NCBI GenBank assembly: GCA_029706075.1
Contig: JAINUG010000137.1
Location: 1,058,501-1,122,500, forward strand
Reading direction: 5' to 3'
Source of the DNA: Aldrovandia affinis
Taxonomy: Eukaryota; Chordata; Actinopteri; Notacanthiformes; Halosauridae
Length of the DNA: 64,000 bases
Shown here: positions 11,571 to 63,794 of the stretch, one piece after another
Numbering within the stretch: position 1 is the first letter of the stretch
How the letters are laid out: each line of letters begins with the position of its first letter
Position numbers and translations under genes: made by a program
The notes under the pieces: model-generated
What the model saw: the letters and a program-made list of their open reading frames with translations, nothing else
What the model was told of the DNA's origin: nothing
Databases searched by the model: none

Positions 11571-11601
<31 letters not shown>

Positions 11602-11806: not shown

Positions 11807-11877
<71 letters not shown>

Positions 11878-11898: not shown

Positions 11899-11904
11899 TC
11901 TCAC

Positions 11905-12062: not shown

Positions 12063-12087
12063 CTGCCAGGGGGGAGAGAGTCACATG

Positions 12088-15902: not shown

Positions 15903-15975
15903 AGACACACACACACACACACACACACATCCCACACACACACACATCCCCACACACACACGCGCACACACACAT

Positions 15976-16013
<38 letters not shown>

Positions 16014-16067
16014 CCCACACACACACACACACACACATCCCACACACACACACACACGCACACACAT

Positions 16068-16103
<36 letters not shown>

Positions 16104-16314
16104 CCCACACACACACACACACACACGCACACACACACCCCACGCATGCTCACACATACACATGCTCTCACACACACACATCCATATGCATACATACATA
16201 CACACACACACAAACACACACATAAACACACACACCCCACACATACACACCTGCTCACACACCCACATGCTCACACACACACACACCCCACACATGCTCA
16301 CACATACACATGCT

Positions 16315-16353
<39 letters not shown>

Positions 16354-16361
16354 CACACATG

Positions 16362-16416
<55 letters not shown>
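15903..16416. repeat. Large CA microsatellite with CATCCCA/CATGCTCA interruptions
   Basis: About 510 bases of CA dinucleotides broken by cacatccca, acatgctc and catacat words. It lies in slc6a15 intron 1. Open frames across it encode only HTHT or VCVC. Confidence 0.93.
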
Positions 16417-16417
<1 letters not shown>

Positions 16418-17615
16418 ACACGGAGCTGTGTAAGCAGAGCCATTTGTATCAATAAAATTGGGGAAGGCCAGGAAATGCTTTGCAGTCAGATTTCATTGAA
16501 CATCGAGAGCACTAAAAGCCTTTTGCAATCTCCTGGTAGAAATATTATGCTACCTTTTTTGTGAGACTTCCTAGTTTGTTTAAATATATCAATTTCTTTC
16601 ATAATGAATAGGCTATTATGAATACATATTGAACAAGCCACCCAGACGCAAGATGAAGCTTTCTACACAATACCACAACACCACACAAATCACACATTGA
16701 GACAGTTACATTACACCTTCTCCCAAGCTCACCTCACATCACTTCACACATGACAACAAGGGATCCCCATACTGGAGGAAATGAGAGAAACCCTACAGGA
16801 GGCCCAGTACCAGTCAAATGTGTGTTCAAAACCAGCACAGCCTTGCCTGTGTAAATCTGTTTAAGGATCAAAGGCCTTTTTGGAGACACTGCCCTGAACA
16901 TTTTCAGCACTCCACGCGTTCTCTTGAAAAGGTCTGCGTTTGACGGCTGTCTAAAGGAGGAAAAGTGCTCTGCCTTTCATAGAAACCAGGTGGCCTGTGG
17001 CTCGCTACCACTAACCTTGGACTGGTCACTTCAAGTAGGCCCTGACACACAGCAAAGAGGCCCAATGATCAGTGCCAGAATTTGCGCTGCAATGCAGAAC
17101 AAGCAGACTAAAGTAACATCGTCCATCGATAGTCACAGAAGCTAATCAATCAAAACACTCGGGTTCGGAGAGACCGGCGTAAAACACACAGAATTCAGCA
17201 AAATACTCTCAAACTGCAGAGTTTCGAAATCAACGTCTCCTTGTCTCCATTTCGGCCTTTCGTGAAACAAGCGTGACTTCTGTCCCGTGGGCCTCACACA
17301 TTGTCTCGACTTATTGTCTGACGTGAACGATAGATATGCCTTCGCCATATAGTACCTGACAGAGCCAGTGCAAGAATTTTAATCTTTCACAAAGCGAGCC
17401 TCTAAATCTTTTTCCCGTCGCCTCACTGGGGCATTATTAAAATACCGGACGCCGTTTAGTATCGAATTCTGTTCAAATACAAGTTAATCCACTCGTTAAT
17501 CCTGCCCCCGGTACCACGAAATCAACACGGCGCCATGGGAACGTTAGGAACGTTCTACGTGACCTGGTTTGACCTCCCGGACCTTGAGACTAGGGACAAA
17601 ACGTTTGAGGACAGG

Positions 17616-17759
17616 CTCTGTGGCTCAGTTGGTAGAGCACGGCGTTGGCAACGCTTAGGTTGTGGGTTCAATCCCCACTGGGGCCACATATACTGAAAAT
17701 GTATGCATTCACTACTGTAAGGCGCTTTGGATAAAAGCGTCTGCTAAATGGTGTATATT
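17616..17759 (+). mobile_element. tRNA-derived SINE with target duplication beside the slc6a15 exon 1 donor
   Basis: A complete short SINE. The head has an A-box-like tggctcagttggtagagc and B-box gggttcaatcccc, followed by body atactgaaaatgtatgcatt and tail gcgctttggataaaagcgtc. It is flanked by aggacagg at 17608-17615 and 17760-17767. The right duplication ends nine bases from the donor boundary at 17776, so the insertion begins about ten nucleotides into intron 1. Confidence 0.93.
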
Positions 17760-17776
17760 AGGACAGGTGGACTCAC

Positions 17777-23877: not shown

Positions 23878-24270
23878 CAGCTGACACCAGGGCAATTCTT
23901 CCCCAATGTGGGAAATGCTAGCCCTCGATTTGCGCCTCAGTTTGTGGATAACAGTGCTGCTATTGGCTGCTCCCGTCACCCAGGGCAACACTGCCAGGGT
24001 ACCCCATGTGATGTCCACACAGTGTCAGACAGCTCGCGCACGTGGCACTGTCCCCCGGGTTGTCATGTGATAAGTGTCACATGAAGAAATGAAGCGATGT
24101 AAACATATTTGCAGAAATCAACAATCGATCCCCTGCTTGATGGCTGCGGTGTTATGAGTCATTTTATATCGTTATTGAATATGTTTGAGAATGCCATGGC
24201 CTTCCCTTTAAAGGGGCGCCAGAGCGATGCCTATATGACAAATAGTACATATTACCACTTCCTGTCTTTT

Positions 24271-24422
24271 ATATATGCCATTCAGCAGACGCTTTTATCC
24301 AAGGCGACTTACAGTAGTGAATGCATACATTTTTCAGTATATGTGGTCCCAGTGGGAGACGAACCCACAACCTAGGCACTGTCAACGCCGTGCTCTACCT
24401 ACTGAGCCACACAGAACCACAG
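24271..24422 (-). mobile_element. tRNA-derived SINE (ggctcag-head family), array-progenitor type
   Basis: Complete minus-strand copy. Its 5' end on the minus strand starts gtggttctgtgtggctcag followed by taggtagagcacggcgttg, so it carries one copy of what is the 29-base minisatellite unit elsewhere in the window. Confidence 0.88.
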
Positions 24423-26625: not shown

Positions 26626-27164
26626 GGCAGACCGTGCTTCCATGCGCCTTTGTCTAAGATTAGCACGACTGAAATGAAACTAGAGCCCCCAGAATGTTTT
26701 GGGGGATTTTTCAACAAATTCACTGAATTTCAATTCAATTCCTGAAATGAATGAACTGAAATGGAATTGACCCCCAAACCTGATACAGATACTGTGTGTC
26801 CGATTGATCATCTGAACTGATGCTCTTTTTGCCCGGCCTGTTCACATGTTCGATCGGTTGCTTTCCGGCCTTCACACTAATGACTGACAGGTTATGTGAT
26901 TGGCCCACTTAGTTGGCAATAATGTGTCCAAGGTCAATAGATAAGAGATAATAGCAAGGTCAATAGATAAGAGACAGCAGTAAAGTAAATGGAATACATC
27001 TGGAACCCAGATGGAAAATTTAAACTTTTCAATCAATTCCTTCAGCAGTTACTTAGGTGTTTACAACCTATTTTCTCTCCGTTTGTTAATATTTTTTAAT
27101 TCATATTCAATAAGTAGCGTTATAAATGTAAATTTATAACGGAATTTAAAACAGAATCACAACC

Positions 27165-27478
27165 CACTCAAAACACACCTTTTCAGACTCCACTACCACT
27201 GAATTCTGTACATCTAGACAATTGTCATCACCACTGCCTACTTGTTCAATACCTCTTGTATATGTATCCTTTCTTACTCCTCAAAAAAATAATCATTTTA
27301 CTAACCTTTTCCTTCCCAGTGTTACAGGTATGGTATGCAGCTGCCAACAATGATGTCTATTGCTGTATTACTGCACTGATCTCTTGCGCGAACAATGATT
27401 GTTCATATCATGTATTAATGCACATCTTGTAAGTCGCTCTGGATAGGAGCGTCTGCTAAATGCTTAAAATGTAAAAGT
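27165..27478 (+). mobile_element. LINE 3'-UTR fragment with SINE-shared tail
   Basis: It begins in the end of the LINE ORF (actcaaaacacaccttttca), runs through gttacaggtatggtatgcag and ends in gtaagtcgctctggatagga. It is collinear with the copies at 38.8-39.2 kb (plus) and 54.2-54.5 kb (minus). Confidence 0.85.
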
Positions 27479-28439
27479 AAATTGTTTTCTGACTGTACAC
27501 ACCGTCCCTCAATGTAGTGTGATCAAAGGGTAACCAGTGAACATGAACACTGCAACTGCTCATTTGTATGGGCGCCATGTTGACTTTGAGAGGAGAAAGT
27601 TGGGTGCCTAATATATCCACCATGATGTCACACAAATGAGTCATCACCTAATCAGATATGACAGCTAAAGTCCCCCGGACAGAAGACAGCTTTGCCAATG
27701 GCCCATGCTACTGTAACCTCACCAACAAGTGAAATGTGAAAGAATTATGGGCTTTTTCCCCCCTCTCTGGTTCTCTCAAGATTGAACCCCCCCCCCCCCC
27801 CACCTCCACCCCCTTAGTTGATGTCAAAAGATAATGGAGCTAATATGGAGTTTAGGGTCCAATCTCAGCTCCCTTCTCAAATTCCTTGCACTGAAAGAGG
27901 ATTAATTTCTGTGTAGAGCTTAAACCCTTTCATTGGAAATCGACTGTGTCACGCGGTTCTGGGTGAACCATGAGACCGGGAGAACACAGGAGTATGTGGC
28001 TTGTTTGTTGTTGTTGAAGGATTCGCATGTTTATTTACGATTGTAAAGGGGGCAGATTGGTAAGGAAATCTGGGGGGCTGAACGAAAGAAGGGGGGAGAA
28101 TTGAGAATGGAGTTAATATTATGACCCCGGATGTCAGGAGATAATGTTAATTTTTTTACGGTTACAACACAACTACTGTCTTGGAGCGGGACCCAATGGG
28201 ACTGCAGGGATTCAGGTGTTTTGGTTTAGTTTAGTTTAGTTTATCCATTCCAAAATTATGATGATTTTTTTTATATCTTCCTGACTATTCTATATGATGA
28301 TTATTATTATTATTATTATTATTATCATTATTATTATTATTGTTATCATTGACCATTACCATCATCAAAAGTTTTTAACCTCAACCAGAAAATGTGCTTG
28401 ACAATGTGTCTTTACAATGTACACCCGCAAACAAAAACT

Positions 28440-28476
28440 AAATATATATATATACTGTATATATATATATATATAC
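28440..28476. repeat. AT microsatellite
   Basis: TA/AT dinucleotides interrupted once by ctg; a similar run lies at about 21822-21841. Confidence 0.85.
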
Positions 28477-30725
28477 ATAATTCTTTCCACCAACCTCAAA
28501 TGTAAGTCACAACAAAATGCATTTCCTTCATGAAAATAAATTCCCTAAAGCCATGCTTATTAGCGCAGAATTTCTGGACCAGTATAATCCCACAGTAATT
28601 GAAAACGGGTTTAGATAATGTACTGTAGTCAGAGACTTGAGCCCTCTACTTTTTTCACAAGGAATTTTCCCACCTGGGGATTTGTGTTTTATTAATGAAT
28701 ATAAAGTTATTATATGAACCAGCCCGCCTTGAGCTTTGGGGAAATTCTACTAATTTCATCTTGTTTCGTCAGCAAAGAGGGGGATTGACCCAGATATTAC
28801 AAGAGATCCATTGAAATAAGAACAGAATACATGAACTAAAGAATCCAACCTCGGTAAGTACGGTTATGTTTTTTGGTGAGAGTTTTCATTCTTCGTTTTT
28901 TTTTTTTTACGTTCTGTGGGAAATGCCTTGTTTTTTGATTGAGGATTAATGTGGAAAATAATTAATGAACCTCAGAGGAGCACCATTCAAAACTATGAAT
29001 GAGTTATGTGTGAGATTACACATTTGGTGTCATCAGTTATCTGCACTACATTTGGCACAGCAATTTTTCATACGTCCATTTTAGAAAGAAAAAAACCCAA
29101 TCTTCATTAACTTTGCCATTTTTTGCCAAGTTTTAAAGAAGCATAATAAATACACTGAAGACCTGAAGGTTACCAATATAACAGAAAGCCAACTTCCTGT
29201 TGTGTCACGTAAGAGAGTTTCCCCATTTGCGCTACCAAGACATTTCTTCTCAAACTCCAAGCGCAAAACCAAGCCCTTCTCGTAGAATAATTGCTACAGG
29301 AGCAGTTACAGAAAAACCCTCCACTGTTTCAACACAGGCGCTCTTCAAATGCAAACGCCATCTAGAGCGGAGCCGCCATTTGACGCTGTGATCTTTTGTG
29401 TGAATGTGCAGCCTAGGGGCTGTCTGGCCCTCGTCTGAGTGCAGTTTGCCTGGAACAAAGGAGCCGAACACCTTGGCCACTGACAAAGGGACAGAGCCAC
29501 TGTGATGCTAATAGGAGCGGACATGCTTGGCTGATGTCTGCAATTTCACTTCATAATGCTACATACAAATTCAAGCAAATGGGCCTTTTCCACTTAACTT
29601 CATTAACAGACACCCACCCCCGTGACTGAAGCTGTTTGATGATACAGAATGACCTGGGCTTATACATGTAGCTTTGAGTATGTATGTTTTACCCCCCACC
29701 CCCACCATGTATTTCACAGAATTTCATGTTGGTGAAAGTCAATCGTATGGCAAAATACTTTGGGCCTCTAGAGAAAAGTCAATAACGGGACGAAGTGGGA
29801 AAATAACTACAGAACTGTGATGGTCAGGCTATCTGCAGCATTTCCACCACATCTGTGTAAGCAGCCAGGTCATCAGTAAAGCTGAGTGGACTGCCTTTAT
29901 GTCACCCTGACTGACTACGTCTCTCTCAGGCCTTGTTTCACCCAAGACAGTGATGGCCACCAATCTTTGCCAGGGAGCCACATTAGCATAACTCAATCAT
30001 CACTAGAGCTGGACTGACACGATATACTCAAATAATATTTGATATGCGATGCATTTGTAAATGTATGTATCTGGAAAATAGAAAAATTATCGCGAGCCAC
30101 CAATTGAGGCTCTGTGGCTCGCGAGCCGTGCAGTGACTGCCCCTGACCTAAGGGGAGCGCCACTGAGACGCTGTTTGCCTTGTAATAAACAACACGTCAG
30201 CATCTGAGCATACCATGGCATACTCTTTTTGTTTTATTGTTGATTATATTCTGTTACGGTGAGACTTGGAGCAATCCGTGGACATGTGTATTCTCAAGGG
30301 CCATGGACGAGCAAAGTGGCAGGGTTTCCTTGGAATTGAACAACACTGAACAATGTTTTGTTCTTGTGTTGACCGCTCGTTTTGGGCAAGGCACACGGTG
30401 GCCATGACTGCGTTTGAACTGAAATGACTGATCTCTGTCTCGATTCATCCCGAGCGGTATCAAGAGGCTCTGGAGAAACGTGGAAGTGACTAAGTGAAAT
30501 TCAATTAAGCCTGTCTAGCTTTCTCTTAATGGCGTACTCACACTGTCTTCTGTACATCGGAAATGAGCCACCTAATTATAAGAGATTATCAGTTTCCATT
30601 CACATAAGAAATGGCCAGTTTCGATTCTCAGAACCATGCGTTATTTGAAACATGCACTTATTTGAATGCTACTTTCAGAACCGGTTTATAAAAATAAAAA
30701 AAACTGGAGAACGAGAACTGATTCT

Positions 30726-30850
30726 TAATATATGCCATTTAGCAGATGCTTTTATCCAAAGCGACTTACAGTAGTGAAAGCATACATTTTTCAGTATGTG
30801 TGGTCCCAGTGGAAATCGAACCCACAACCTAAGCGTTGTCAGCGCCATAC
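30726..30850 (-). mobile_element. tRNA-derived SINE (ggctcag-head family), 5'-truncated
   Basis: Tail (tatgccatttagcagatgct), body and B-box region (gaaatcgaacccacaac) are present. The A-box head is missing beyond ttgtcagcgccatac. Confidence 0.85.
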
Positions 30851-31592
30851 TAAAAGGGATAAAAGGTTCTTCAAGGGATGAAAGGTGTGATGGAAAGTCA
30901 TGCAGTTAGAAGCGAAGGTTTGTCTGATAGGTTCCTTTAATGTTCACCAAACTGTGCTGAGCAGCAGCAAGGTTAGGGCTTACCTGGCCTGTACCTTAGT
31001 GCAGCACTGTAAATTTAAAATGCTGCTGTTGTCGGAGATCTTGTGTCAGGGGGCCACAAACCAAAAGTGCTGCCCATGCAAGTCAGAAGCATGAAACTTT
31101 GCCATTGTCATGTAAAAAGCACACATATGTTTAATTTCAACCATTTCATTTTGTCCACACGATTTCCATTTTTGGTAACCCTGTTGATAAATAAGAGCAC
31201 TTTTCTGTATTGCCTCCAATATCCACAAGAGGGCGATAGTACCCTTCACCCCAGTTTTATTTGGTTTGTGAATTTATCTGCGCACGACAGCATTGACCTC
31301 CAGCACCTGCTGGGAAACACGAAGATATGCTCCGTTTTTATTTCCTTCCAGTTAATCCAAGTGAAGTCCCATGTGTATCACCACAGACATATGGATGGAG
31401 ACTGAACAATATTTAGGAAATTGATCAAGTAATGCAATTTACATCAGCAGATACATTTTATACAAAAATCAAGATCATAATCATACCGACGCTCATCATA
31501 ATTTCCCCACCAGTAACCTTATCATGTGTGAACACAACTCCCAAGGTGAAAATCCCCCCTCCCCCAGAAAACGTATTTCCACGCTCTGATAA

Positions 31593-31598
31593 TTTATT
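31593..31598 (-). terminator. Candidate polyadenylation signal of tspan19
   Basis: AATAAA on the minus strand, about 333 bases after the tspan19 stop codon. It is the first canonical hexamer I noticed downstream. No transcript evidence is available. Confidence 0.35.
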
Positions 31599-31930
31599 GT
31601 AGTATTCTATATAATATCTTATAAACTCAATATTGGATTTAATATCTAATTATCTATTGGTGGCAATACATGTCTTTGGGAAAAACATAAGAAAAATACA
31701 TTGGGGATTAATTTCTTCATTTCACTTATTAGCTGATATTGTTGGTATGTTTTGGCTCCATTTTAGTAGCATGTTCTGAATTATGATTCAGCTGATATGC
31801 TTTCCTGCACAATATAACGGACTGCCTACATTATGAATAATGTTCCTCTTGTAGGCTACATGTTATTCCAGCAGAAAAATGACAACAAAAACAAAATGGA
31901 TTAGACAAACAGATCACACGCTGGCCTTCA

Positions 31931-32056
31931 TCAGTCGATGTGTTGGTATCCGTCATTGGTGGCTGAAAACTCCTGTGAAGCACTGAGCAGTCTCTTTTGT
32001 TTGACTTTCTTCTTGATACTCCGCACCAAGTACAAGCTGAGAACAAACTGGATGAC
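31931..32056 (-). CDS. tspan19: tspan19 coding exon 8 (C-terminus and stop)
   Basis: Acceptor CTTTTCCAG, then 41 codons and a TGA stop at 31933-31931 followed at once by a second TGA. It encodes the end of TM4 (VIQFVLSLYLVRSIKKKVKQ) and a cytoplasmic tail ending NDGYQHID. The cluster of lysines after TM4 fits the usual inside-positive boundary. It joins exon 7 in phase 0. Confidence 0.93.
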   Translation of the reverse strand, partial: VIQFVLSLYLVRSIKKKVKQKRLLSASQEFSATNDGYQHID

Positions 32057-32586
32057 CTGGAAAAGAAGTGACCACTCTCATGTTACATTTTCAAATAATT
32101 ACCCACTCCTGCGTCCACTTTATGCAGAAAGGTCATTAAAAGGCGCTGCATGTACTATTGTTGATGGGATTTAAATTACGGCCTTTCCATTACGGCTGTG
32201 TCAACCCAGTACAGGCATCGCCATTGGTTGGTCGCTTCCAAATGTTTGGTGATTGTCGATTGCGATTTCCTCTGACAGCTGGCAGTTCCTGTGCAATCCC
32301 GTGAGAATTCTCATTGCCCAGACACAGAGAGAGTAAGGCCAGATTCCCATCCTGGCTCTTTGCTTTTCCCCAAGTCTACCTTTACATGATTGGTTGTTGA
32401 ATCTCACAAGTGAAGTCTTCACCCATCCCCCCCCCCCACGAAGATATTGAGATGTTTACAACCTTTAAGTGCTCCTCTTAGGCAGTGGTCTACCCTCGCA
32501 TGCCTCTCTCAGTTTCTTTGCCAAGGCTACAGGACAGATCACCAATCTGGCTCTTCTAGTCTGGCCATGTTATCCTGGTTCACTTT

Positions 32587-32939
32587 TTTAAATTTTTTAC
32601 ATTTTATTTCACATTTTTTCCCTTTTTTTTCCCCAATTTGGTTGCCAATTCCCCCTCCCCCACGAGTCTGCCGCCCGTCCTCTGGGTCGAGACACTCTTT
32701 CCGGGCCGATAGATCCGCCTCTTCCGAGACGGAACTGTACCACGGACGCCTTTTTCCTGCTCCTCGACGGACTCGTGCCGGCTCACCCTCCCTCCTCCCG
32801 GAGGCGGACAGCCAAATACCACCTCCAATCGGGGCTGATGACCAGGGCTTCCAACCATGTCCCTGACAGGCAGCTCACACCACACCGGACCAGCCAGTCT
32901 AAGTGTGGTGCGTTAGACCACTAAGCTATCCGCCACCCC
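32587..32939 (-). mobile_element. tRNA-derived SINE (cgcagcggt-head family) with perfect target duplication
   Basis: About 353 bases in tspan19 intron 7. On the minus strand the tRNA-like head reads gtggcggatagcttagtggt. The body is GC-rich with an aggcggaca-type block, and the 3' end is caaccaaattggggaaaaaa. It is flanked by the perfect 15-base direct repeat atcctggttcacttt at 32572-32586 and 32940-32954. Confidence 0.93.
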
Positions 32940-33009
32940 ATCCTGGTTCACTTTCAATCAGTTTACCAACTCCCTCCCTCTCCAGCCCCACCAGCCCCGT
33001 TCTTGCGCA

Positions 33010-33165
33010 AAATGGCTGTCAGGCATCACGCAAGCGGTGGCAATGCTTTAGTGGTGGTTGAGGTCAAGTCCACCCCCCACACCCTCACTGTAAATAACTT
33101 TTGAGATCCTGAGAGGAGAAGTGCCATGTAAAAGACACTTAATATTATTATTATTATTACTTTAA
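33010..33165 (+). mobile_element. 5S-SINE 3' fragment
   Basis: In tspan19 intron 7. The gtggtggttgaggtcaagtc block and a terminal ATT microsatellite match the 3' part of the 5S-derived SINE at 13.6-14.0 kb. The 5S head is absent. Confidence 0.55.
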
Positions 33166-33227
33166 CTCACGATCTCTGACTTTATCTTAACGCACTGCTA
33201 ATAAGCAAGTCTCTTTTGCAACATTAC

Positions 33228-33311
33228 CTGAATGAGAACCAGGCCAGCATTCATGCCCAGTATTGTGAGGCCATTCTGTCGGAGCCAGTCGCTTATACGT
33301 CCCTCACAGCC
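33228..33311 (-). CDS. tspan19: tspan19 coding exon 7
   Basis: 84 bases, phase 0 at both ends, with acceptor TCTGACACAG and donor GTAATG. It encodes GCEGRISDWLRQNGLTILGM then NAGLVLIQ: the last cysteine of the large extracellular loop followed by the first part of TM4. The GCE motif before TM4 is typical of tetraspanins. An alternative upstream acceptor (TATACAG) would not keep frame with exon 6. The upstream intron holds a hAT-type foldback element that begins about 40 bases from this acceptor. Confidence 0.92.
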
Positions 33312-33351
33312 CTGTGTCAGAAAGTCGTTCAAAAACAGAGCTGTATAAGAT

Positions 33352-33765
33352 GGGGGTGTAAAACTCGTTCCATGAAGGGCCGAGCATGCAAGATTTGGTT
33401 GCAACCAGTGCACCACACTGGGTAATTTCACCTGTTACATTTTACATTTACATTTTAAGCATTTAGCAGATGCTCTTATCCAGAGCGACTTACAAGATGT
33501 GCATTAATACATGGTAAGAACAATCATAGTTCGCGCAAGAGATCAGTGCAGTAATACAGCGATAGACATCGTTGTAGGCAGCTGCGTTTTTTTTTTTTGA
33601 GGAGTAAGAAAGGATATATATACAAAAGGTATTGAACAAGTAGGCAGTGGTGATGACAATTGGCTACAGTTCCCCCTCCTTGGTTGAAGAAGGGACCTAA
33701 TTAGTGAAATCACCTGGTGTAGTGCACTGATTGCAACAACAAACACCCCCAGTTTGACAGCCCTG
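33352..33765. mobile_element. hAT-type foldback element split by a LINE 3' end (nested insertion)
   Basis: The left half 33352-33431 (ggggtgtaaaactcgttcca to gggtaatttcacctg) and the right half 33668-33765 (agttccccctccttggttga to tttgacagccctg) are the two arms of the family found intact at 43023-43223. Between them lies a minus-strand LINE 3' end (33432-33667) with the usual tail. The composite fills most of tspan19 intron 6. Confidence 0.85.
33432..33667 (-). mobile_element. LINE 3' end nested in a foldback element
   Basis: Minus-strand copy with tail (tttagcagatgctcttatcc), gcgcaagagatcagtgcagt, a T-run and the distal part ggcagtggtgatgacaattg. Confidence 0.88.
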
Positions 33766-33872
33766 ATATAAAGTGAAATAAAGGGCAGAAGCAATATTGA
33801 AAAGTAGCTTCAGTAGTTTAACCGTGCACACGACCTTTAATTGCATTTCAGTGCAAGACTCTGCCCTCCTAC

Positions 33873-34043
33873 CTGCTGGTGCACAGCTGAGCCCCTGCCA
33901 AACCTCTGTGAGGCGTCACTGCTGAGGAACGGGCAGCTGGAGTTGAAACACGAGCAAGGATACACGCTTTCCTTGTCGAGAAGTGTTTGAATGAAAACAT
34001 TATTGTCCCACTGGGTGTAGTTGAATCTTCCACAGCACTCGCT
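33873..34043 (-). CDS. tspan19: tspan19 coding exon 6 (large extracellular loop)
   Basis: 171 bases, phase 0 at both ends, with acceptor TTATCCAG and donor GTAGGA. It begins SECCGRFNYTQWDNNVF, containing the CCG signature that defines tetraspanins, and continues through SVYPCSCFNSSCPFLSSD. With GCE in the next exon the loop has six cysteines, as in human TSPAN19. NYT and NSS are potential N-glycosylation sites. Confidence 0.95.
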
Positions 34044-34154
34044 CTGGATAAGACAATAAAAGAATATTTTTTTGGTTCTGGCACAACTCTGAAATACGTA
34101 TTTGATGAATTATGATATGCAGTCACAGCTGGTGGAATGTTTCTTTATACTCAC

Positions 34155-34265
34155 ATAATGCTGGACAGTGTCGAGCAGGCGCCACATTTCGGCTGAGCTG
34201 TTTGCGCTCGCTGTCCCATAGGTCAGAATGATCTCATCCACCTCATCTATCAACGCCTGTTTGAT
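34155..34265 (-). CDS. tspan19: tspan19 coding exon 5
   Basis: 111 bases, phase 0 at both ends, with acceptor CTGTCACAG and donor GTGAGT. It encodes IKQALIDEVDEIILTYGTAS then ANSSAEMWRLLDTVQHY, the helical first part of the large extracellular loop before the CCG motif. Intron 5, separating it from exon 6, is only 111 bases. Confidence 0.92.
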
Positions 34266-34482
34266 CTGTGACAGGACACCAATCAAACTGCGCATTAACA
34301 TCGTCTGCTCTCGGGAAACGTTTCAGCCATATCCCTACACCGAATACAAAAAAGACATGACTCTTTTAAGGTTGCATTTTCCAAACGTTCCCACGGACCA
34401 AGAATGGATCATTTCATTTAATTTCATACAAATTGAATAGCTAGTAATGATGCACAGTGCTGGTAGCACTATAATGTAATAT

Positions 34483-34620
34483 TATATATGCCATTTAGCA
34501 GACGCTTTTATCCAAAGCGACTTACAGTCGTGAATGCATACATTTTCAGTATATGTGGCCCCAGTGGGAATCAACCCCACAACCTAAGTGGCCAACGCCA
34601 TGCTGTACCTACTGAGCCAC
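34483..34620 (-). mobile_element. tRNA-derived SINE whose head grades into the 29-base array
   Basis: Tail, body and B-box region (gtgggaatcaaccccacaac) are intact. The A-box end (tacctactgagccacacaga) is continuous with the tandem array that follows on the plus strand. Confidence 0.88.
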
Positions 34621-35593
34621 ACAGAACCACGCTCTACCTACTGAGACACACAGAACCACACTCTACCTACTGAGCCACACAGAACCACACTCTACCTACT
34701 GAGCCACACAGAACCACGCTCTACCTACTGAGACACACAGAACCACGCTCTACCTACTGAACCACACAGAACCATGCTCTACCTACTGAGCCACACAGAA
34801 CCACACTCTACCTACTGAGCCACACAGAACCATGCTCTACCTACTGAGCCACACAGAACCACACTCTACCTACTGAGCCACACAGAACCACTCTCTACCT
34901 ACTGAGTCAAACAGAACCATGCTCTACCTACTGAGACACACAGAACCACGCTCTATCTACTGAGCCACACAGAACCACGCTCTACCTACTGAACCACACA
35001 GAACCACGCTCTACCTACTGAACCACACAGAACCACGCTCTACCTACTGAGCCACACAGAACCACGCTCTACCTACTGAACCCACACAGAACCACGCTCT
35101 ACCTACTGAGCCACACAGAACCACGCTCTACCTACTGAGCCACACAGAACCACGCTCTACCTACTGAGACACACAGAACCATGCTCTACTTACTGAGCCA
35201 CACAGAACCACGCTCTACCTACTGAGACACACACACAGAACCACGCTCTACCTACTGAACCACACAGAACCACAGCTCTACCTACTGAGCCACACAGAAC
35301 CACGCTCTACCTACTGAGCCACACAGAACCACGCTCTACCTACTGAGCCACACAGAACCACGCTCTACCTACTAAGACACACAGAACCACGCTCTACTTA
35401 CTGAGCCACACAGAACCACGCTCTACCTACTGAGACACACAGAACCACGCTCTACCTACTGAGCCACACAGAACCACGCTCTACCTACTGAGACACACAG
35501 AACCATGCTCTACTTACTGAGCCGCACAGAACCACGCTCTACCTACTGAGCCACACAGAACCACGCTCTACCTACTGAGCCACACAGAACCAG
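34606..35593 (-). repeat. 29-base minisatellite derived from a SINE head (tspan19 intron 4)
   Basis: About 34 tandem units of 29 bases. On the minus strand the unit contains gtggttctgtgtggctcag followed by taggtagagc. Two main variants differ at ggctcag versus gtctcag, and there are a few one- to four-base indels. No spacers and no ORF. Confidence 0.97.
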
Positions 35594-36097
35594 TGGTAAA
35601 TGGCACATGTTATATGAATAGGGTTGTAGAGTGGGTAATGATGTGCAGTGCTGGTAGCACTAGTGAGCCCTGAACAACAGAAGGACACAAGGGCTGTCCT
35701 CCCGAAAAATAATTTATAAATAATGTTGGTAAATAATGTTATAAATACAGGGCAGTGACAATAAATCTATGAATCGGGTCTATTTCTGTGCTTGAAGTTG
35801 TTTTCTGTGCTTGGAGTTGATGCGGCATGTTCGGTTGTTCTTTATCAATGTTCTGTTCTGTTCAATCTAAAAGCTGAATGCACTTTCTGTAAGATCACTT
35901 TACATAAAAGTGGCTGGCAAATGACTGAAATGTAATGATGAATTAACTAATGCCTTAATTACCAGAAAAACTCATCAGATCTTGCTGTTACATTAAATCT
36001 GTATATTTCCGCAGTGTAAACATGCTGGCTATTTCAAATTATCTGGAGAATGTCAATTTCAAAAAAGTAAAACAAGATGTTATAAATCTGTCCTTAC

Positions 36098-36172
36098 CTG
36101 GTCCTTTTGCAACAGTAATATGAATGTGACGAAAAGCTGGCCAAGGAATATAACTATTAATAAGCCCATATA
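36098..36172 (-). CDS. tspan19: tspan19 coding exon 4 (TM3)
   Basis: 75 bases, phase 0 at both ends, with acceptor CTTTTTCAG and donor GTAAGG. It encodes YMGLLIVIFLGQLFVTFILL then LQKDQ, the third membrane helix. It matches the 75-base TM3 exon common in tetraspanin genes. Confidence 0.93.
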
Positions 36173-36304
36173 CTGAAAAAGAAGAAGAAATACAAATGAA
36201 ATTAATATTTTCGTTACAAATGTGTTTATAATTGTTTATAGTATATATGGATATGGATGGAACAGGGGGGCAGAAGGATGATGTGTAGGCAAGCAGTTCA
36301 TTTT

Positions 36305-36660
36305 TATATGTTTTTATTTGTTTTAGATTTTTTCCCATTGTTCTCCCAATTTGCTAGCCAATTGCACCGTCTATTTATTTCTATTTACCCTCCCCACACG
36401 AGTCCGCCACTCGTCTCTACGAGGCAAGCTAATTCTCCGCGGGCAGCTCGACTTTCTTCGAGACGGAATTCGCCCACCCACGTTCTGGAGACTCCCTTAC
36501 GTGCTTCACGGTGGACCCGAGCCGGCTCACCCTTCCCCCTCCCCCTGGGGCGGACAGCCCAACGCTGCCCCCGATTGGGGCTGATGATCAGGGCCGGTTT
36601 GGTAGGGACGGGTTTCGAACCGCGTCCCTGACAGGTAGCGCACCCCATATCAGACCAGCC
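36305..36660 (-). mobile_element. tRNA-derived SINE (cgcagcggt-head family) in tspan19 intron 3
   Basis: Minus-strand copy. The B-box-like gacgggtttcgaaccgcgtc and the GC-rich body match the copies at 32.6 and 47.7 kb, as does the 3' end caatttgctagccaattgca read on the plus strand. Target duplication not clear. Confidence 0.85.
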
Positions 36661-36883
36661 AAGATAGTATTGAGCTGAGAAATGGCCTTGGACATGTACA
36701 CAGAAGGAAAGAAAACTAACAAAAAACAAATAATGGGTCATCTTTGGGAGAATAATTGCTCATATTTGTATGTATGCTTGCATAATCCCTCAAGGTAAAC
36801 ACAGATCAGAACACTTGCACATTCACATGTTTTGTACCGTGCCTTTCTTGTCCTCTAATTTTGGCGGTTTGTGTAATACTTAC

Positions 36884-36996
36884 TAGCATGATAAGAAATT
36901 GTACTTCCTTAGCCGCGCCTACATATCCCAGGCCAGTAACCCCGACCACGACCAAGCCGATCACGAAAAGGCAGCCGGCGACAAGCTCCATTTGAC
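36884..36996 (-). CDS. tspan19: tspan19 coding exon 3 (TM2)
   Basis: 113 bases with acceptor CGCCTACAG and donor GTAAGT. It takes one base from exon 2 to complete a glycine codon and ends on a codon boundary. It encodes QMELVAGCLFVIGLVVVGVT then GLGYVGAAKEVQFLIML, the second membrane helix and the small inner loop with the typical GxxGAxKE pattern. Confidence 0.95.
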
Positions 36997-37228
36997 CTGT
37001 AGGCGAAACCGCGTCCATACACGATGGCGAATTTCTTTTTTAAATTAAGCAAGACATTAGCAATAAGGGGTACCCCTCACTGCTGTTTCTAAAGCCACAT
37101 TCTGCATCCTGCAGTGTGAAATTCACAGCACAACTGACACAACAGCTGAACAGATTTATATTTCTGCTTTTTAAATCATTTTCACACTCTCATAGGAGAC
37201 AAACCACAGATATCACAGGCATACTCAC

Positions 37229-37307
37229 CTCCACTAATGGTCATAACAAAGCTGCTTTTGTCAAACAGAATCCATATTCCACACCCAAACACAGCCAGTC
37301 CAATTAT
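37229..37307 (-). CDS. tspan19: tspan19 coding exon 2 (end of TM1, small extracellular loop)
   Basis: 79 bases, entered in phase 0 and left in phase 1, with acceptor CCATCTCTAG and donor GTGAGT. It encodes IIGLAVFGCGIWILFDKSSF then VMTISG. The GxGIW/LFD pattern is that of tetraspanin TM1 and the small extracellular loop. Confidence 0.94.
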
Positions 37308-37631
37308 CTAGAGATGGGAGAATATTAGTTTGTGCCAAGGAGGAAAAACATGAGACTTTTGTTTTTTCATTTTCAAATCCATTTGTTTTTCGTTTGCACA
37401 ACATCGTTAATATTATGCTATGACAACCGAATTGGTAAACACTCGCCTGAGGTCACTGATATTTATTGGGTTAAACCAATTGGGATTATCACATTTCACA
37501 CTGTGGCAGAGCAGGAAAACGCACACTAAGAGCTTCATGGCAAAGCATCTGAAACAGTAATCCAAACAAAGGTATGCTCTTGAGGTCTGGTGGAGCGATG
37601 ACAAACAGCTATTTCATGTTTAAAGCCTTAC

Positions 37632-37751
37632 CACAAAGACACCATTGAAAACCATTAAGAAGAATTTGAGAATCTGTATCCTGTCTTCTGCCTTCATTCT
37701 TCCGCCCAAGCCGTTTCCACGACACCTATCATGCAAGTGGCAAACGGCCAT
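37632..37751 (-). CDS. tspan19: tspan19 coding exon 1 (start codon, TM1)
   Basis: Tetraspanins are four-pass membrane proteins that organise other membrane proteins in microdomains; TSPAN19 itself is poorly characterised. I took the ATG at 37751 because an in-frame TAA lies just upstream and its context (A at -3, G at +4) is strong. A second in-frame ATG at 37697 would give a shorter cytoplasmic start, MKAEDRIQILKFFLMVFNGV, which aligns better with family N-termini, so either start is possible. The donor is GTAAGG. The eight exons sum to 879 bases (292 residues from the first ATG, 274 from the second). Naming as tspan19 rests on the six-cysteine loop and position next to slc6a15. Confidence 0.88.
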
Positions 37752-38744
37752 GTTTGAACACTGCAGTACTTTTGTTTAACATCCTGGTTACAAGGCCAAG
37801 TCAAAACAAGGCAAATTACATGACGCACGCTCATTTAACATGCTACTTATACAATGCTATATATGATATAGATACAGGTACATAATGACGAAATGTGTAC
37901 AAAATAAATGGTATGTATATATATATATTATTATATGTTAGCATATATTATTATATACTTGTTAATATAACAAGCAGACAACAAGCACTGCGTACAGACA
38001 CACACAACATACACATAAAGATATAGAGTACCTGTCTGTACAGATAAGGGGGAGAGAGACAGCGAGAGAAAGAGAGAGGGAAATACAGTCTTTCTTACTT
38101 GAAAAACAGTCAGTTGAGATGTGCTCTGGCTAACGTCTGCCTCAGATGTCCCACCACATGGTCTATTCCCTGTAGAAGTAGCTGTTTGCCTGCTGTTTGG
38201 CAAGTTTCTGTTGAAATACTTCACAATTAAATGTGAAGTGCGTCCAGGAAATGCAAATACAAATCCAAAGTCCACAAAGTGTGATTTCAAAGTGCAGTTT
38301 GCGGCTTCCTGATAGTTCTTCAATTGTTAACTAGATGCCATAAAATCTGCCAAGCAATGATTCATAAAAGCTTCCATCTTCTGTCTACCTATGTTTCTAC
38401 CCCTAGGGGGCGTATTACTTGGAGATATTGCATTTTGTAAAAATAACAACAGGAAAACCACAATCGTTTGTGTTAGTCAAACTTTTTCACATTTCCCTTT
38501 TTTCCCTTTTTTGTTCTCCTTTTCGACATTTCTCCCACCCTCTCACTCTTGCACAGATTTGCCATTTTTTAGGCAGATGATGTCATTGATGATGCATGTG
38601 ATGATGTCATTAATAGGAAATTCTTTCATGACTAAAGAGTGACAAAAGACAACAGATTGTGAATCCGCACACACCAATGTCTTCCATCATGTGCAGGGCT
38701 TACAATTTAACATGTAAAGTTATTGCTTTTTTTGAAGAGAGTTT

Positions 38745-39170
38745 GTGGCATCAGGTTTTGCGGGCCCTGTGGGCGCCCAGCAGCCGCTCCTCACGGTCTC
38801 GCCTCTTCTCTGTCTCAACCCCTCGGTGGTGGAACGATCTTCCGCAATCAGTCAGGACCGCGGAATCACTGGCCATCTTCCGCAAGAGACTCAAAACCCA
38901 CCTCTTCAGACTCCATTACCACTAATTATCATCACCACTGCTTTCATGTTCAATACTGCAAAACAAAACAAAATGCATGTACTGTATGTTGATGACTGTC
39001 CAAAAAAAAAAAAAAAAAAAACTCAAACTTTTCCCTCTTTATGTTACAGGTACGGTTTGCAGCTGCCAACAATTATGTCTATTACTGTATCACAACACTG
39101 ATCTCCGGCGTGGGCTATGATTCATCTTACCACGTATTAATGCACATCTTGTAAGTAAATGTAAAATGTA
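38745..39170 (+). mobile_element. LINE 3' end with terminal ORF residues and SINE-shared 3' region
   Basis: The frame at 38790-38925 reads SRLFSVSTPRWWNDLPQSVR then LKTHLFRLHYH and a stop, the C-terminus of a Jockey/L2/CR1-type LINE ORF2. It is followed by the 3' UTR shared with five other fragments in this window (gttacaggtacggtttgcag, tattaatgcacatcttgtaa). The last tail hairpin is deleted here. 5'-truncated and inactive. Confidence 0.85.
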
Positions 39171-39414
39171 AATGTATGGATTCAGGTGCTGTGGTTGAGT
39201 CAGATTAAGAATAGTGTTTGTTCTGTATAGATAGTAATAGAATTGGTGGCGGTGCTCTCACAATACGTGCCATTAGGAACACAAGCATAAGATTACCGTT
39301 TAAAAAGTTTGCCTCACTTTCATTCACATCATCAGGAGGGTTGACTTAAAACCAGACGCTCTTGCCTCCTGCGTGGTTTCAACGTCCGATGCTGGCCATG
39401 GGGACCGGGGTTAA

Positions 39415-39660
39415 ATTCAGGGAGAGGGGAGGGACTCAAGCCGACAAGACGTCACTCGCTGCGCACAGGAGTGGCTCTGGGGTGCCAGTTGGAGTGTGAC
39501 GGTGTTGGTTCTGTCGGCTTAACGAGTGCCGTCTCGGAGGAGATCATACCTCGCCTTTGTCGCCGCCGGTCACAGGGCTACAGCAGTGAACTATGAGGGA
39601 GGGATTGACCTGAAAATAGAGGGTGTAATTGGCTACCAAATTGGGAGAAAAACTATTTGA
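39415..39660 (+). mobile_element. SINE relic (cgcagcggt-head family, variant body)
   Basis: Only body and 3' end are clear: gtgtaattggctaccaaatt then gggagaaaaac, in plus orientation. It resembles the copies at 41.9, 53.2 and 54.9 kb. Confidence 0.65.
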
Positions 39661-40315
39661 ACAAATTGAAAAACAATTTATTTTTATTTTTATAAAAGCC
39701 GACGCTCTTATTGTATCTGAAGCAAACCTAACAGAGCGTGTAGCAAGCTTTGTATGTAAGGAATGTGTCAAATCGGGTTTCAGACAAACCAAGAGCTCTC
39801 ACCCCATGAATGAATGGACTAGCGATATCAACCAATCACCCTGATATTGTTAGTCCACCTATATACAAAAAATGCTTATATACTGATATACTGAACGTTA
39901 TTCATTTTTCCTAAACCTGAGGGAAATTTTAGAAACAAGTCAATGCAAAATCAAGGATCACCAAGTCTAAACTTTAAGATGAGACCAATCAAAGCCCTGA
40001 AAAGTAGCCTACTGTGAGTGTCTCTTTGAAACTGTAGATGGGGGTATTTTATGTCTCCTAAGAAGGTTAGCTGCTTTGAGAATATTTTTGGCCACATGAA
40101 AACAGGTCAACTGTATGTATAACAATTCAAGTAAACCAGCGCTTCCCAAAATAAACATTTACTTGTTGGTTACAGACCTGACCACTAGGTGTCCCCGTTC
40201 TCCACACAAAGATTGTGTCACCTCGCTTGCTGTTCTTTACTCAGCTTTGGCAACAAACGGACTCCAACTTCATTACACCATGTGCTCCAGGATAATGGGT
40301 CCTGGGGGGTATCAT

Positions 40316-40371
40316 TTACATTTACATTTTAAGCATTTAGCAGACGCTCTTATCCAGAGGGACTTACAAGT
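40316..40371 (-). mobile_element. LINE/SINE tail fragment
   Basis: Short tail copy: tttacattttaagcatttag followed by cagacgctcttatccagag. Confidence 0.75.
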
Positions 40372-40529
40372 CGCGGAAGATCGCAAGTGACCACAAGAAC
40401 GGCTGCCGGGCGCCCGGAGGGATGGGACAGTCAGTATCAAGTGCTGTGTACAGCTAAAGCGCTGGTTTCCAGTGCAGTGACACGCCCTACAGTCTGGTTA
40501 TGAATTCTGACTGTGTCAGGGCCTACGGG

Positions 40530-41526
40530 CAGGGGCGGCACCAGAAAATTTTGTTTGGGGGTGCTAAGGGGGTGCTTTATGGTTGTGAGGGGGGTGCTCA
40601 TGAAATGTAGACACCCGTGCAGGTCACGGGCGCGCAGACCACGGCTATGAAGGCTACATTACTATGCAAATGTTTAAACCATCTAGTCAGATATTACAGC
40701 ACGGCGACTACAACAAGCATGCTATGCATTGATTTAGCTTATGCACTGCCATCTCACGTGCTCAAAAATGTATACGATGACCCAGACCCTCAATACCAAT
40801 AGCCAGGGAAACATTGCCACAACATGACAGATAAACACTGCTTAGACCATCTCATTCATTGCAAAATCAACGGGAGCTTGTGTTGGCTCGATATCTTTTT
40901 GTTTTTTAGGAAAAGATCATGATGGACGGACCACGAAAAAAATGTGTACAGCACCTGCATTGATTCAAAGAACTCTGCCGCCGGTTGTATGTTTTTAACG
41001 CAGTCCACCAAAACAAGATTTAGACGATGAGCGTGGCAGTGGATATACAGTGCCTGTGGGACATATTTTCTGAATTTACCTGCTACACCGTTATGACAGC
41101 CTGACATAACGGCTGCGCCGTCATAGCATTGAGCAACGCACGTATTGTGGTCAAAGTTGCATTTATTAAGTGTCAGTTTGATTGTTTTTAAAAGCGAATC
41201 AGCGTCTAATCCATTGGCTGGAGTGAAACGTAGGAATTCTTCCAGTGCAACATCATTGTGCAAATAGTGTGCCACCACAGACACCTGTTCTTTTTTGCTG
41301 ACATCCTTTCGTCGACTATCAATGATGCAAACAGTCCAGCTTCCTCTATTTCACTACTTATTTGCTCCCTAACCATATTTGCCATAATTTCAATTAACTC
41401 GTTCTGTATAGCATGGTGAGTATACTTCGCATTTCTGGGATTGTCTGATATTTTTTGCGCAACAGTTTTGTCGAACTTGCCAATAACGTGTAAAAGTTCA
41501 ATGAAGTTTAATGTTCGAGATGGCAA
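40530..41526 (-). pseudogene. hAT-like transposase relic (ZMYM1-like/DUF4371 type) with one terminus
   Basis: Minus-strand coding pieces at 41526-41206 and 41284-40856 read in two frames. The first has KISDNPRNAKYTHHAIQNEL and GLFASLIVDE; the second has VSVVAHYLHNDVALEEFLRF, CVAQCYDGAAVMSG and the YIHCHAHRLNLVL motif. Together they resemble hAT-superfamily transposases of the kind annotated as zinc finger MYM-type protein 1-like in fish. A frameshift near 41305 separates the pieces. The plus-strand sequence CAGGGGCGGC at 40530 is a plausible element terminus. The opposite end was not found. Not functional. Confidence 0.82.
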
Positions 41527-41914
41527 CGTAACGTACGTAGGCTAGTTATAGGTACTCTCGTCTCGCGAGACCCCCCCACATTGCCCAATAAACTCAAACT
41601 GTGCCATAGTTGTACTGCAGTAGATGTATTTCAATAAGATGAACCCGCGAAGACAGTCCGAGATAGCAACCCAGCCTGAACTGTGCCTGCTGTAAGTATG
41701 CTTTAGAACAGGTACATCTATGTCTGACTTTTGAGGGCTGCGCACATTTCGATGTGATTCATTGGGCAAAGAGTTGTTATCATCGAGCAGCCCTAGTTAA
41801 AGAGCAGACTCACTGTTTACCTGTGGAGCAACATGCAGCTGAAGGTGAAACCAGGTACCAGGATATCTCAACTGTCATTGGTCATTTTTAATTTATCACA
41901 CTGTAGTACTGGTC

Positions 41915-42284
41915 ATATTTTATTTTTTACAGAATTTGTTTCTGATTTTCTCCCATTTTCTCCCAGTTTAGTAGCCCATTACACGATCTCTTTTTCATGT
42001 CAACCCCCCTCGTATTGTGAGTTCGCTGCCGTAGTCCCGTGACCAGCAGTGACACAGGCGAAGTATCGTCTCCTCCGAGCCGGCACTCGCCAGGCCGTCA
42101 ACCGTAACTCTGGTACTCCAGAGCCACTCCTATATGCTCATGTTGGCTCCCCTCCCCCCGCCCCCCTCCCCGGGGCGGACAGCCAATTGCCACCCCCCTA
42201 GTGGCACTCCCAGCCAGAGCCGATACTGGCGCAGCCGGTGGAATCGAACCCCAGTCGCAGTGGCCAGTGTCGAACGTTGTAACT
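41915..42284 (-). mobile_element. SINE (cgcagcggt-head family, variant body) with short target duplication
   Basis: Minus-strand copy with the 3' end tctgattttctcccattttc read on the plus strand, a GC-rich body with ggggcggacagccaattgcc, and a B-box-like ggtggaatcgaacccc. Flanked by tactggtc at 41907-41914 and 42285-42292. Confidence 0.82.
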
Positions 42285-55145: not shown

Positions 55146-55146
55146 A

Positions 55147-55243
55147 CATTTTTCAGTATATGTGGTCCCAGTGGAATTTGAACCCACAACCTAAGCGTTG
55201 TCAACGCCACGCTCTACCTACTGAGCCACACAGAACCACTGTC
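55147..55243 (-). mobile_element. tRNA-derived SINE head (ggctcag family), 3'-truncated
   Basis: Minus-strand head with gtggttctgtgtggctcag, A-box and B-box (gtgggttcaaattccactg). It ends in the body at actgaaaaatg, directly joined to the other SINE relic. GTGG occurs at 55239-55236 and again exactly 29 bases on at 55210-55207. Confidence 0.9.
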
Positions 55244-61026: not shown

Positions 61027-61548
61027 AGTAGTTCTCTGTGGTTCAGTAGGTAGAGCGTGGTTCTGTGTGGTCAGAGCGTGGTTCTGTGTGTCTCAGTAGA
61101 GCGTGGTTCTGTGTGGTAGGAGCGTGGTTCTGTGTGTCTCAGTAGGTAGAGTGTGGTTCTGTGTGGCTCAGTAGGTAGAGTGTTCTGGTTATAGGTGTGG
61201 TTCTGTGTGTCTCAGTAGGTAGAGCATGGTTCTGTGTGGTCTCAGTAGGTAGAGCGTGGTTCTGTGTGGCTCAGTAGGTAGAGCGTGGTTCTGTGGCAGA
61301 GCGTGGTTCTGTGTGGCTCAGTAGGTAGAGTGTGGTTCTGTGTGGCTCAGTAGGTAGAGCATGGTTCTGTGTATTGGCAACTCTTAGGTTGTGGGTCTCA
61401 GTAGGTAGAGTGTGGTTCTGTGTTCCATTGGGACCACATATCGTGGTTCTGTGTGGCTCAGAAGAATGTATGCATTCACTAGACTGTACTCTTAGGTTGT
61501 GGGTTCTTTGGATAAAAACGTATCATTCACTACTAAATGGCTAAATGG
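61027..61548 (+). repeat. Irregular 29-base SINE-head array ending in scrambled SINE body
   Basis: About ten units of the ggctcagtaggtagagc repeat with frequent deletions run from 61027 to about 61365. After that, pieces of the SINE body (ggcaactcttaggttgtggg, ccattgggaccacatatc, gaatgtatgcattcactag, ggataaaaacgt, aaatggcatatatta) alternate with further repeat units up to the SINE tail. Confidence 0.9.
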
Positions 61549-62239
61549 CATATATTATATTATTATATTGTAAGGGCAGCGGCCCAACCCAGCGCTACTC
61601 CCCACACACGGGCGCACACTTCCTCAGCCCACATCCCACCAAGGAGAGGTCCTGACCCCCAGCCGCTCCCCATCCCCCCGTGCGTCAGTCAGCAGGTGCT
61701 CCCAGGGTTCCGAATGATGTCATCTCCTGGTGCAGAGAACCACGCCGCGCTCGGCCGCGGCCAAAGAAAGCAGATCAGGTGGGACATTTCCAGCAGCCCA
61801 TCCGTGTTTATCACGGGATGGGAACATTGGCGTAACCTTATTTCTTCAACTATTTTTGGTTGTTGTTGCATGAAATGAACAATGCAGGACTTGGGGGCTA
61901 AAGGCATGGGCCAAGCTGACGTCACACGGTCTGTTGTGAGGAAAGATGAGAAGCCCTAGTCATAACAAGACGTACTTACTCTACTGTATGGTAATGTAAC
62001 GCTTCCATATTCCATACAGAATGCCTTGGGGATTGAAACCTGTGTTGTAAACAAATTGTGTTGGAATTCTGTTGGTGGGACCATGTCAGGGGAAAGTTAT
62101 TTCAGAAAATGATGCAAGGCATTCAGTCGTATCACACAGGATAGGCTTGTCCAGACTTGCAACATCCAATGCGGCCAATGGCTCCTCTTTTGGTAGATAT
62201 GTCGACAAAGTGATCTTGCTGGAAAAATGTATAAAATTG

Positions 62240-63216
62240 TGGTTCTGTGTGACTCAGTAGGTAGAGTGTGGTTCTGTGTGGCTCAGTAGGTAGAGCCTGG
62301 TTCTGTGTGTCTCAGTAGGTAGAGTGTGGTTCTGTGTGTCTCAGTAGGTAGAGCGTGGTTCTGTGTGTCTCAGTAGGTAGGGCGTGGTTCTGTGTGGCTC
62401 AGTAGGTAGAGCGTGGTTCTGTGTGTCTCAGTAGGTAGAGCGTGATTCTGTGTGTCTCAGTAGGTAGAGCGTGGTTCTGTGTGTCTCAGTAGGTAGAGCG
62501 TGGTTCTGTGTGTCTCAGTAGGTAGAGCATGGTTCTGTGTGTCTCAGTAGGTAGAGCGTGGTTCTGTGTGTCTCAGTAGGTAGAGTGTGGTTCTGTGTGG
62601 CTCAGTAGGTAGAGCGTGGTTCTGTGTGTCTCAGTAGGTAGAGCGTGGTTCTGTGTGTCTCAGTAGGTAGAGCATGATTCTGTGTGTCTCAGTAGGTAGA
62701 GCGTGGTTCTGTGTGGCTCAGTATGTAGAGTGTGGTTCTGTGTGGCTCAGTAGGTAGAGCATGGTTCTGTGTGTCTCAGTAGGTAGAGCGTGGTTCTGTG
62801 TGGCTCAGTAGGTAGAGCGTGGTTCTGTGTGGCTCAGTAGGTAGAGCGTGGTTCTGTGTGGCTCAGTAGGTAGAGCGTGGTTCTGTGTGTCTCAGTAGGT
62901 AGAGCATGGTTCTGTGTGGCTCAGTAGGTAGAGTGTGGTTCTGTGTGGCTCAGTATGTAGAGCGTGGTTCTGTGTGTCTCAGTAGGTAGAGTGTGGTTCT
63001 GTGTGGCTCAGTAGGTAGAGCGTGGTTCTGTGTGGCTCAGTAGGTAGAGCGTGGTTCTGTGTGGCTCAGTAGGTAGAGCGTGGTTCTGTGTGTCTCAGTA
63101 GGTAGAGTGTGGTTCTGTGTGGCTCAGTATGTAGAGCGTGGTTCTGTGTGGCTCAGTAGGTAGAGCGTGGTTCTGTGTGTCTCAGTAGGTAGAACACAGC
63201 ACTGACAACGCTTAGG
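62240..63216 (+). repeat. 29-base minisatellite derived from a SINE head, plus orientation
   Basis: About 33 units containing gtggttctgtgtggctcag or the tgtctcag variant, followed by taggtagagc. It is the same unit as the array at 34.6-35.6 kb, on the opposite strand. The last unit runs into gacaacgcttaggt, the region that follows the A-box in the intact SINE. Confidence 0.97.
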
Positions 63217-63794
63217 TGACATCCCTGAACAAGCATCGTGGCACACGATGAACTACTGCTGGTGGGAGTCACGAGACGTTACGTTTAGAGAGCGACTCTT
63301 TCCCAAACTGCTCACTCAGCAGTGCTGGCTTTGACAGCAGCCATCAAAGCCAGGGCACAATGAACAACCTTTCGCATTGACGTCTGCTTGTCCTAATATT
63401 TAGTCTGAGATCGTCCCATCTGCGATGGCACAAATATTTCCAAAAGGGGGAGAAAAAAAGTGGCAACACTCATCTAAGTGACACCAGACATATTGGCACA
63501 TTTCCAACAGTGGGTGGTTGCCGTTGGGTACGAGTGACGAGTTGGTTGTCAGGTCGGGTGGAACACGAGGTTATGCGTGTCATAATCTGAGGCATCATGT
63601 GATCTGGGTGAAAACGTATGGAATCATATATACAGAACATTACAGACCATGTGTGAACAGATGACCACATACATCAGATATACTGAAATCTGATTTGTTA
63701 ACTGTATAGGATATGAGTGTAAACAAGGCCTATGCATATCCATTGTCCTCCTGTATAGCACTACTGCACGACTGTAATTTGTATCCTCTATGAA

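Follow-up and report, generated by a model that had tools for sequence, protein, structure and literature searches.

We found that the 29-nt tandem repeats scattered through the genome of the fish Aldrovandia affinis do not, where head and units can be distinguished, copy the head of the SINE that they adjoin. On balance we favour the reading that many of these arrays received their units from a shared pool, joined in phase onto SINE heads, and did not grow from the adjoining SINE. Array A1, which lies in the window (the whole 64,000-nt stretch of DNA analysed here), is one instance of a minisatellite that derives from a SINE and occurs genome-wide. We favour a shared pool because units and own heads of the TTGG subtype mismatch, the 14T variant is pooled across arrays, array-bearing SINEs form no lineage, units are less diverged than bodies, arrays are joined in phase, and the SINE beside a second array carries a scar. 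The passage from interspersed elements to satellites is poorly documented; as the parent SINE is abundant here and has distinguishable head subtypes, an origin of units from their own head can be separated, locus by locus, from an origin outside it.

Array A1, its adjoining SINE and its host gene

Tandem Repeats Finder (TRF) gave a period of 29, 34.1 copies, 93% matches and a score of 1712 for A1 (Table 1), confirming the original prediction of a 1-kb array of about 34 units of 29 bases at 34606..35593. The unit, GTGGTTCTGTGTGGCTCAGTAGGTAGAGC, was identical at 29 of 29 positions to the start of two single-head SINEs in the window (matches at 24386 and 55205) and to the first 29 nt of 27 dispersed SINE copies, themselves retrieved via that exact word, which bears out the prediction that the units are copies of a SINE 5' head. 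The 16-base unit core matched the window 80 times at up to 3 mismatches, against 0.3 matches expected, and none of 100 shuffles reached 80. A1 is in phase with the body of its SINE, whose UnaL2 3' element (34485-34538, minus strand) scored 76.6 bits, and beyond the unit the SINE consensus continues as ATGGCGTTG, so that the TGG at nt 31-33 repeats the TGG at nt 2-4. An A-box-like word without a B-box had been expected in every unit; the unit does hold the word and no B-box, but the word is not in every unit, as 7 of the 34 A1 units carry T at nt 14 (14T) and others vary too. The 28-bp direct repeat (26/28) that brackets A1 and its SINE is offset from the array by 42 bp on one side, and a target-site duplication is a possible reading of it. 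ARAGORN reported tRNA-like sequences at 17614, 24343 and 55162 among the SINEs of the window, and the parent element appears to be a tRNA-derived SINE with a UnaL2-type tail.

That the array sits inside a gene was also upheld, in that ORF pieces matching tetraspanins flank A1 on the same strand. Once joined, these pieces matched PF00335 with an E value of 1.1e-4 and a score of 22.4 bits, short of the 32.1 that Pfam sets as its cut-off, and matched CD82 in the PDB with an E value of 3.4e-5; a six-frame Pfam scan of 27001-42000, stops written as X, gave no family. These matches suggest that A1 sits between exons of a minus-strand tetraspanin gene, where it most likely rides along passively in an intron, in the sense orientation. 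Elsewhere, two overlapping minus-strand ORFs at 40856-41541, which gave no match in Pfam scans spanning them, form a pair that we take to resemble a hAT-type transposase-derived protein.

Table 1. Arrays, SINEs, direct repeats and tetraspanin-like ORF pieces in the window.
Feature	Positions	Strand	Basis or remark
SINE of TTGG head subtype, shorter 5' end	17608..17762	plus	
Single-head SINE, unit = head	24262..24422	minus	
ORF piece on one side of A1	33869..34109	minus	weak tetraspanin match (E 0.044)
ORF piece	34110..34322	minus	part of joined tetraspanin query
Direct repeat, 28 bp, left copy	34444..34471	plus	26/28 equal to right copy
SINE body and UnaL2 tail, into which A1 runs	34483..34597	minus	B-box region altered (GGGTTGATTCCC), judged against the B-box consensus
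Array A1, 34 units of 29 nt, unit = SINE nt 1-29	34598..35592	minus	TRF and unit alignment
Direct repeat, 28 bp, right copy	35635..35662	plus	42 bp beyond array A1
ORF piece on the other side of A1	36806..37039	minus	weak tetraspanin match (E 0.015)
Single-head SINE, starts exactly with unit	55146..55239	minus	tail missing
Array A3, irregular units	61028..61372	plus	several units internally shortened
SINE body after A3	61374..61568	plus	interleaved with head and body fragments
Array A2, 32.9 units	62239..63193	plus	TRF and alignment
SINE body remnant after A2	63194..63217	plus	to about SINE nt 51

The window holds three arrays, of which A2 and A3 were absent from the original prediction; both begin at SINE nt 1. 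The SINE body after A3 preserves its order (nt 36-58, 66-82, 86-111, 117-132 and 135-150), its breaks being inserted part copies of head or body after each of which the body resumes a few bases further on. This mosaic would be the expected trace of serial template switching, with assembly error as the alternative.

Other repeats in the window include a second UnaL2-tailed family with a different tRNA-like head (731, 5648, 9351, 22231 and 57000), and, at 9597-12494 and 15905-16421, CA-rich long minisatellites and a 517-bp AC run. The UnaL2 3' element also occurs at 33453 and 49185 with similar upstream sequence, probably as the ends of 5'-truncated LINEs.

Abundance and anatomy of the arrays

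We searched the assembly of the window itself (1.222 Gb in 2,576 contigs, the window lying on contig C413), and controls with reversed patterns gave counts of 0. The genome-wide count with the 29-base unit that accompanied the original prediction as a suggestion did reveal further arrays: the exact 29-mer matched 24,274 times, and unit-unit junctions numbered at least 46,790, from which array DNA was calculated by multiplication to be at least 1.36 Mb, or 0.11% of the assembly. The exact SINE body word occurred 7,293 times, and one exact form of a double head followed by the start of the body matched 166 times. Among the double-head matches listed, 22 were on C180, C413 and C591 (about 8.6 Mb together; C591, 2.58 Mb) and none on C1 (25 Mb), yet C1 has 93 exact body words; the arrays are therefore clustered by contig, as judged from these counts.

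Forty-five loci were aligned to the unit by wraparound alignment: 30 double-head matches (L070-L099), 11 from the first listing of unit-unit junctions, L028 from the search with the exact 29-mer, and the three arrays of the window. Selection biased two of the samples, as L070-L099 had to show exact end units and a body starting with ATGGCG, and the 27 single copies had to show an exact head. The sample free of head selection comprised 20 loci, all on C1, of which a strict filter left 12 with a full head.

Array size ranged from 1.6 to 48.2 units in 44 arrays (L073, at a contig edge, left out). Among the body-attached arrays, counted without L073 and L093 (N gap), 28 of 37 start within nt 27-29 or 1-4 (p = 6e-11 vs 7/29), including 18 at nt 1; L068, in which the array starts at nt 1 and is followed by a SINE body with an internal gap, was counted as solo in this test. 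The terminal unit extends into the SINE in 38 of 43 aligned arrays (L073 and L093 apart), and arrays without a SINE body were found at L059, L060, L061, L065 and L067. Direct repeats around array and SINE together were short and slightly above shuffles (mean 3.84 vs a null of 3.22; 32 loci), and those around single SINEs averaged 4.0 vs a null of 3.37 (25 loci).

Divergence and lineage of units and bodies

The alternative that survives best, although we regard it as unlikely, is that array and body were joined at insertion, with target-primed reverse transcription copying the body and then jumping onto an array-bearing SINE RNA or onto many SINE RNAs. Consistent with this are the end of the arrays at the SINE 5' end, the equally weak direct repeats around array-bearing and single SINEs, and the presence of arrays on bodies of all subtypes. 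Such jumping between templates has been documented for LINE-1 ORF2p in the relevant part of PMC10830420, and a passage of the review PMC2881922 touches on it. The five arrays that lack a SINE body argue against joining at insertion, as does the finding that inner units were less diverged than their own bodies (1.5% vs 3.5% at 28 loci, L074 skipped; Wilcoxon p = 9e-5). Divergence of units and own bodies was uncorrelated (p = 0.32), and unselected single heads were 4.7% diverged (14/300), more than the units (235/15,394; p = 3e-4). Unit divergence between arrays (2.52) was close to that within them (2.39), which speaks for a shared pool.

The array-bearing SINEs are not a lineage, their bodies being mixed in with those that lack an array. 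When 36 array-bearing bodies were compared with 27 single ones, no difference was found at any of ten polymorphic sites (lowest p = 0.19), and a poorly resolved tree of 57 bodies showed 19 changes of array label vs 19.1 when labels were shuffled (286 of 500 shuffles as low). Body divergence was 4.85% for array-bearing and 4.67% for single SINEs, a near-equality that rests on the aberrant L074 and L088; with three aberrant bodies removed the values were 3.2% and 4.4% (p = 0.08), and some difference in age or selection may therefore remain.

A variant shared among arrays

The 14T variant, which falls in the A-box, is frequent in arrays and rare in SINE heads, a further point against joining at insertion. 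It was present in all 30 arrays of at least 8 units and made up 195 of their 680 units; in arrays with a TTGG head, 13 of 43 upstream units had it. Exact heads beside a SINE body had T at nt 14 in 110 cases vs G in 1,668 (110/1,778), and 20 body-adjacent 14T heads from the first 25 listed comprised 13 in arrays and 7 single ones. The 14T share was unequal across arrays (p = 4e-6), so the unit pool is not uniform, and it dropped with rising unit divergence (rho = -0.42, p = 0.04), which disfavours a slow accumulation of 14T. Since nt 14 is the fixed G of the A-box consensus TRGYNNARNNG, units with 14T are predicted to be poor promoters, and their abundance in arrays would fit a spread without Pol III RNA. 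As to the source of the variant, a reverse-transcription error at a modified tRNA position was considered and set aside, since T was present in none of the 12 unselected single heads.

Array units differ from the head of their own SINE

The original prediction was one of local growth, in which the adjoining SINE insertion expanded its own head into an array. We consider this improbable, and less probable than joining at insertion. When units were sought whose next head reads TTGG rather than TAGG, 144 matches came up; of the first 29 listed, 20 were retrieved, with dense clusters and some others left out. Ten TTGG heads were attached to a body (nine identified by script and L128 by eye), and the rest lay within arrays; the set excludes L139 as ambiguous and L133 because a further unit precedes the body there. 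Upstream units were scored only where CAGT[A/T]GGTAGAG was intact, and upstream of the ten heads, TAGG was found in 42 of 44 scorable units. TTGG is an ordinary head subtype of the SINE (3 of 12 unselected full heads) and is scarce inside arrays (3 of 653 interior units). In addition, the own-head variants of A1, L064, L066 and L028 were absent from all other units of their respective arrays, although later mutation of these heads is possible. The claim that a single insertion grew its own array was thus not supported, in view of the uncopied TTGG heads, of variants pooled across arrays (14T in every array tested), and of units less diverged than their own bodies.

The internal order of the arrays bears on local growth in both directions. 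Units that adjoin each other resembled one another no more than shuffled units did (1566 vs 1519, sd 23; 31 arrays), and the simulated power of this test was 1.0 for growth by single units and 0.17-0.55 for growth by blocks. Growth by single units is therefore excluded, because adjacent units are not alike at a power of 1.0; expansion by blocks is compatible with these power values, and the TGG at both unit borders likewise favours local growth. Block repeats were clear in L090, L091, L067 and L069 (p ≤ 0.003) and weak in L086 (p = 0.015), that is, in four or five of the 30 arrays evaluated, and the summed block repeats (265 vs 187 in shuffles) were matched by 0 of 300 shuffles. A few arrays show multi-unit block growth subsequent to joining, and others may have undergone it.

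Proposed origin of the arrays

In the shared-pool reading, the first duplication of the head probably occurred via the TGG at nt 2-4 and nt 31-33. The most likely route by which units then joined SINE heads would be template switching at the DNA level, or gene conversion, with head homology as the anchor, after which some arrays would have undergone block duplications and each unit would have gathered private mutations. Several points count against joining from a pool: blocks of unit order common to different arrays were not clearly found among 24 arrays (p = 0.13), though copying of whole blocks predicts such sharing; the 14T share is uneven among arrays; array-bearing bodies, once aberrant ones are removed, are slightly less diverged than single ones; and the sample L070-L099 is selected.

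A more specific form, which we put forward tentatively and hold to be somewhat short of an even chance, is that the minisatellite spreads by docking, in which resident SINEs receive an in-phase copy of array DNA at their heads. The retrotransposon would then give the addresses and recombination the movement, and the arrays would evolve as one pool. If so, the seeding of a satellite would need no new duplication at each locus, and a kilobase of tandem repeat could enter an intron with such a SINE in one step.

A long-headed master SINE that founded every array locus by retrotransposing as such would explain why 14T is common to arrays, but is very hard to credit given the TTGG own heads and bodies that form no lineage, and this candidate was rejected on the label changes on the tree together with the undifferentiated body sites. 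It is just as implausible that the arrays are an assembly artefact: several array loci are on contigs of about 35 kb, L093 abuts an N gap and A3 is scrambled, but the 45 aligned loci differ in flanks, lengths and unit orders, and many are in contigs of about 2.5-9.7 Mb.

Comparison with known systems

Tandem repeats at the 5' side of retroelements include the 5' monomer arrays of mouse L1 and the VNTR of SVA, which travel with the element. The fish arrays resemble these in position and differ in that the array-bearing SINEs are not a lineage.

The closest parallels are with the squamate SINE-derived satellites (sSats) of Vassetzky et al. 2023 (PMC10702118). As described in the pertinent sections, their units measure about 67-290 nt, the terminal one continuing into the SINE; units are more uniform where loci are longer, and the location is subtelomeric in observed cases. 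The same sections call the restriction of sSats to squamates uncertain. By what defines an sSat, the fish arrays belong with them, as the unit comes from a resident SINE, at least 4 units occur at many loci and the terminal unit runs into the SINE. In both, part of a tRNA-derived SINE is in tandem at many loci with few to many units each, and here too the terminal unit continues into the SINE, to its end. Compared with the sSats as they are presented there, the fish unit is shorter (29 nt), coincides exactly at its start with the SINE 5' end and covers just the A-box part; its units were shown not to copy the head of the host SINE, and the fish loci show no clear homogenisation within a locus (2.39 within vs 2.52 between).

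A fish SINE-head array was not noticed in the open-access literature searched; the portion of PMC6951006 concerned with a fish SINE describes simple repeats upstream of it, not head arrays. Minisatellites from Alu and B1 SINEs are listed in the corresponding sections of PMC6947457 and PMC9659126; they share with the fish arrays short SINE-derived tandem units, for which an origin by slippage between short repeats is proposed there, but come from other SINE families, and those sections do not describe unit sharing among dispersed arrays. The same two sources, in their coverage of amphibians, list tRNA-like tandem repeats (Xenopus satellite 1 and Hydromantes Hy/Pol III), which likewise have tandem units with a tRNA-related region. 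These amphibian repeats are longer and their SINE origin is judged inconclusive in the part of PMC10702118 that treats them, whereas the parent SINE of the fish arrays is abundant in the same genome.
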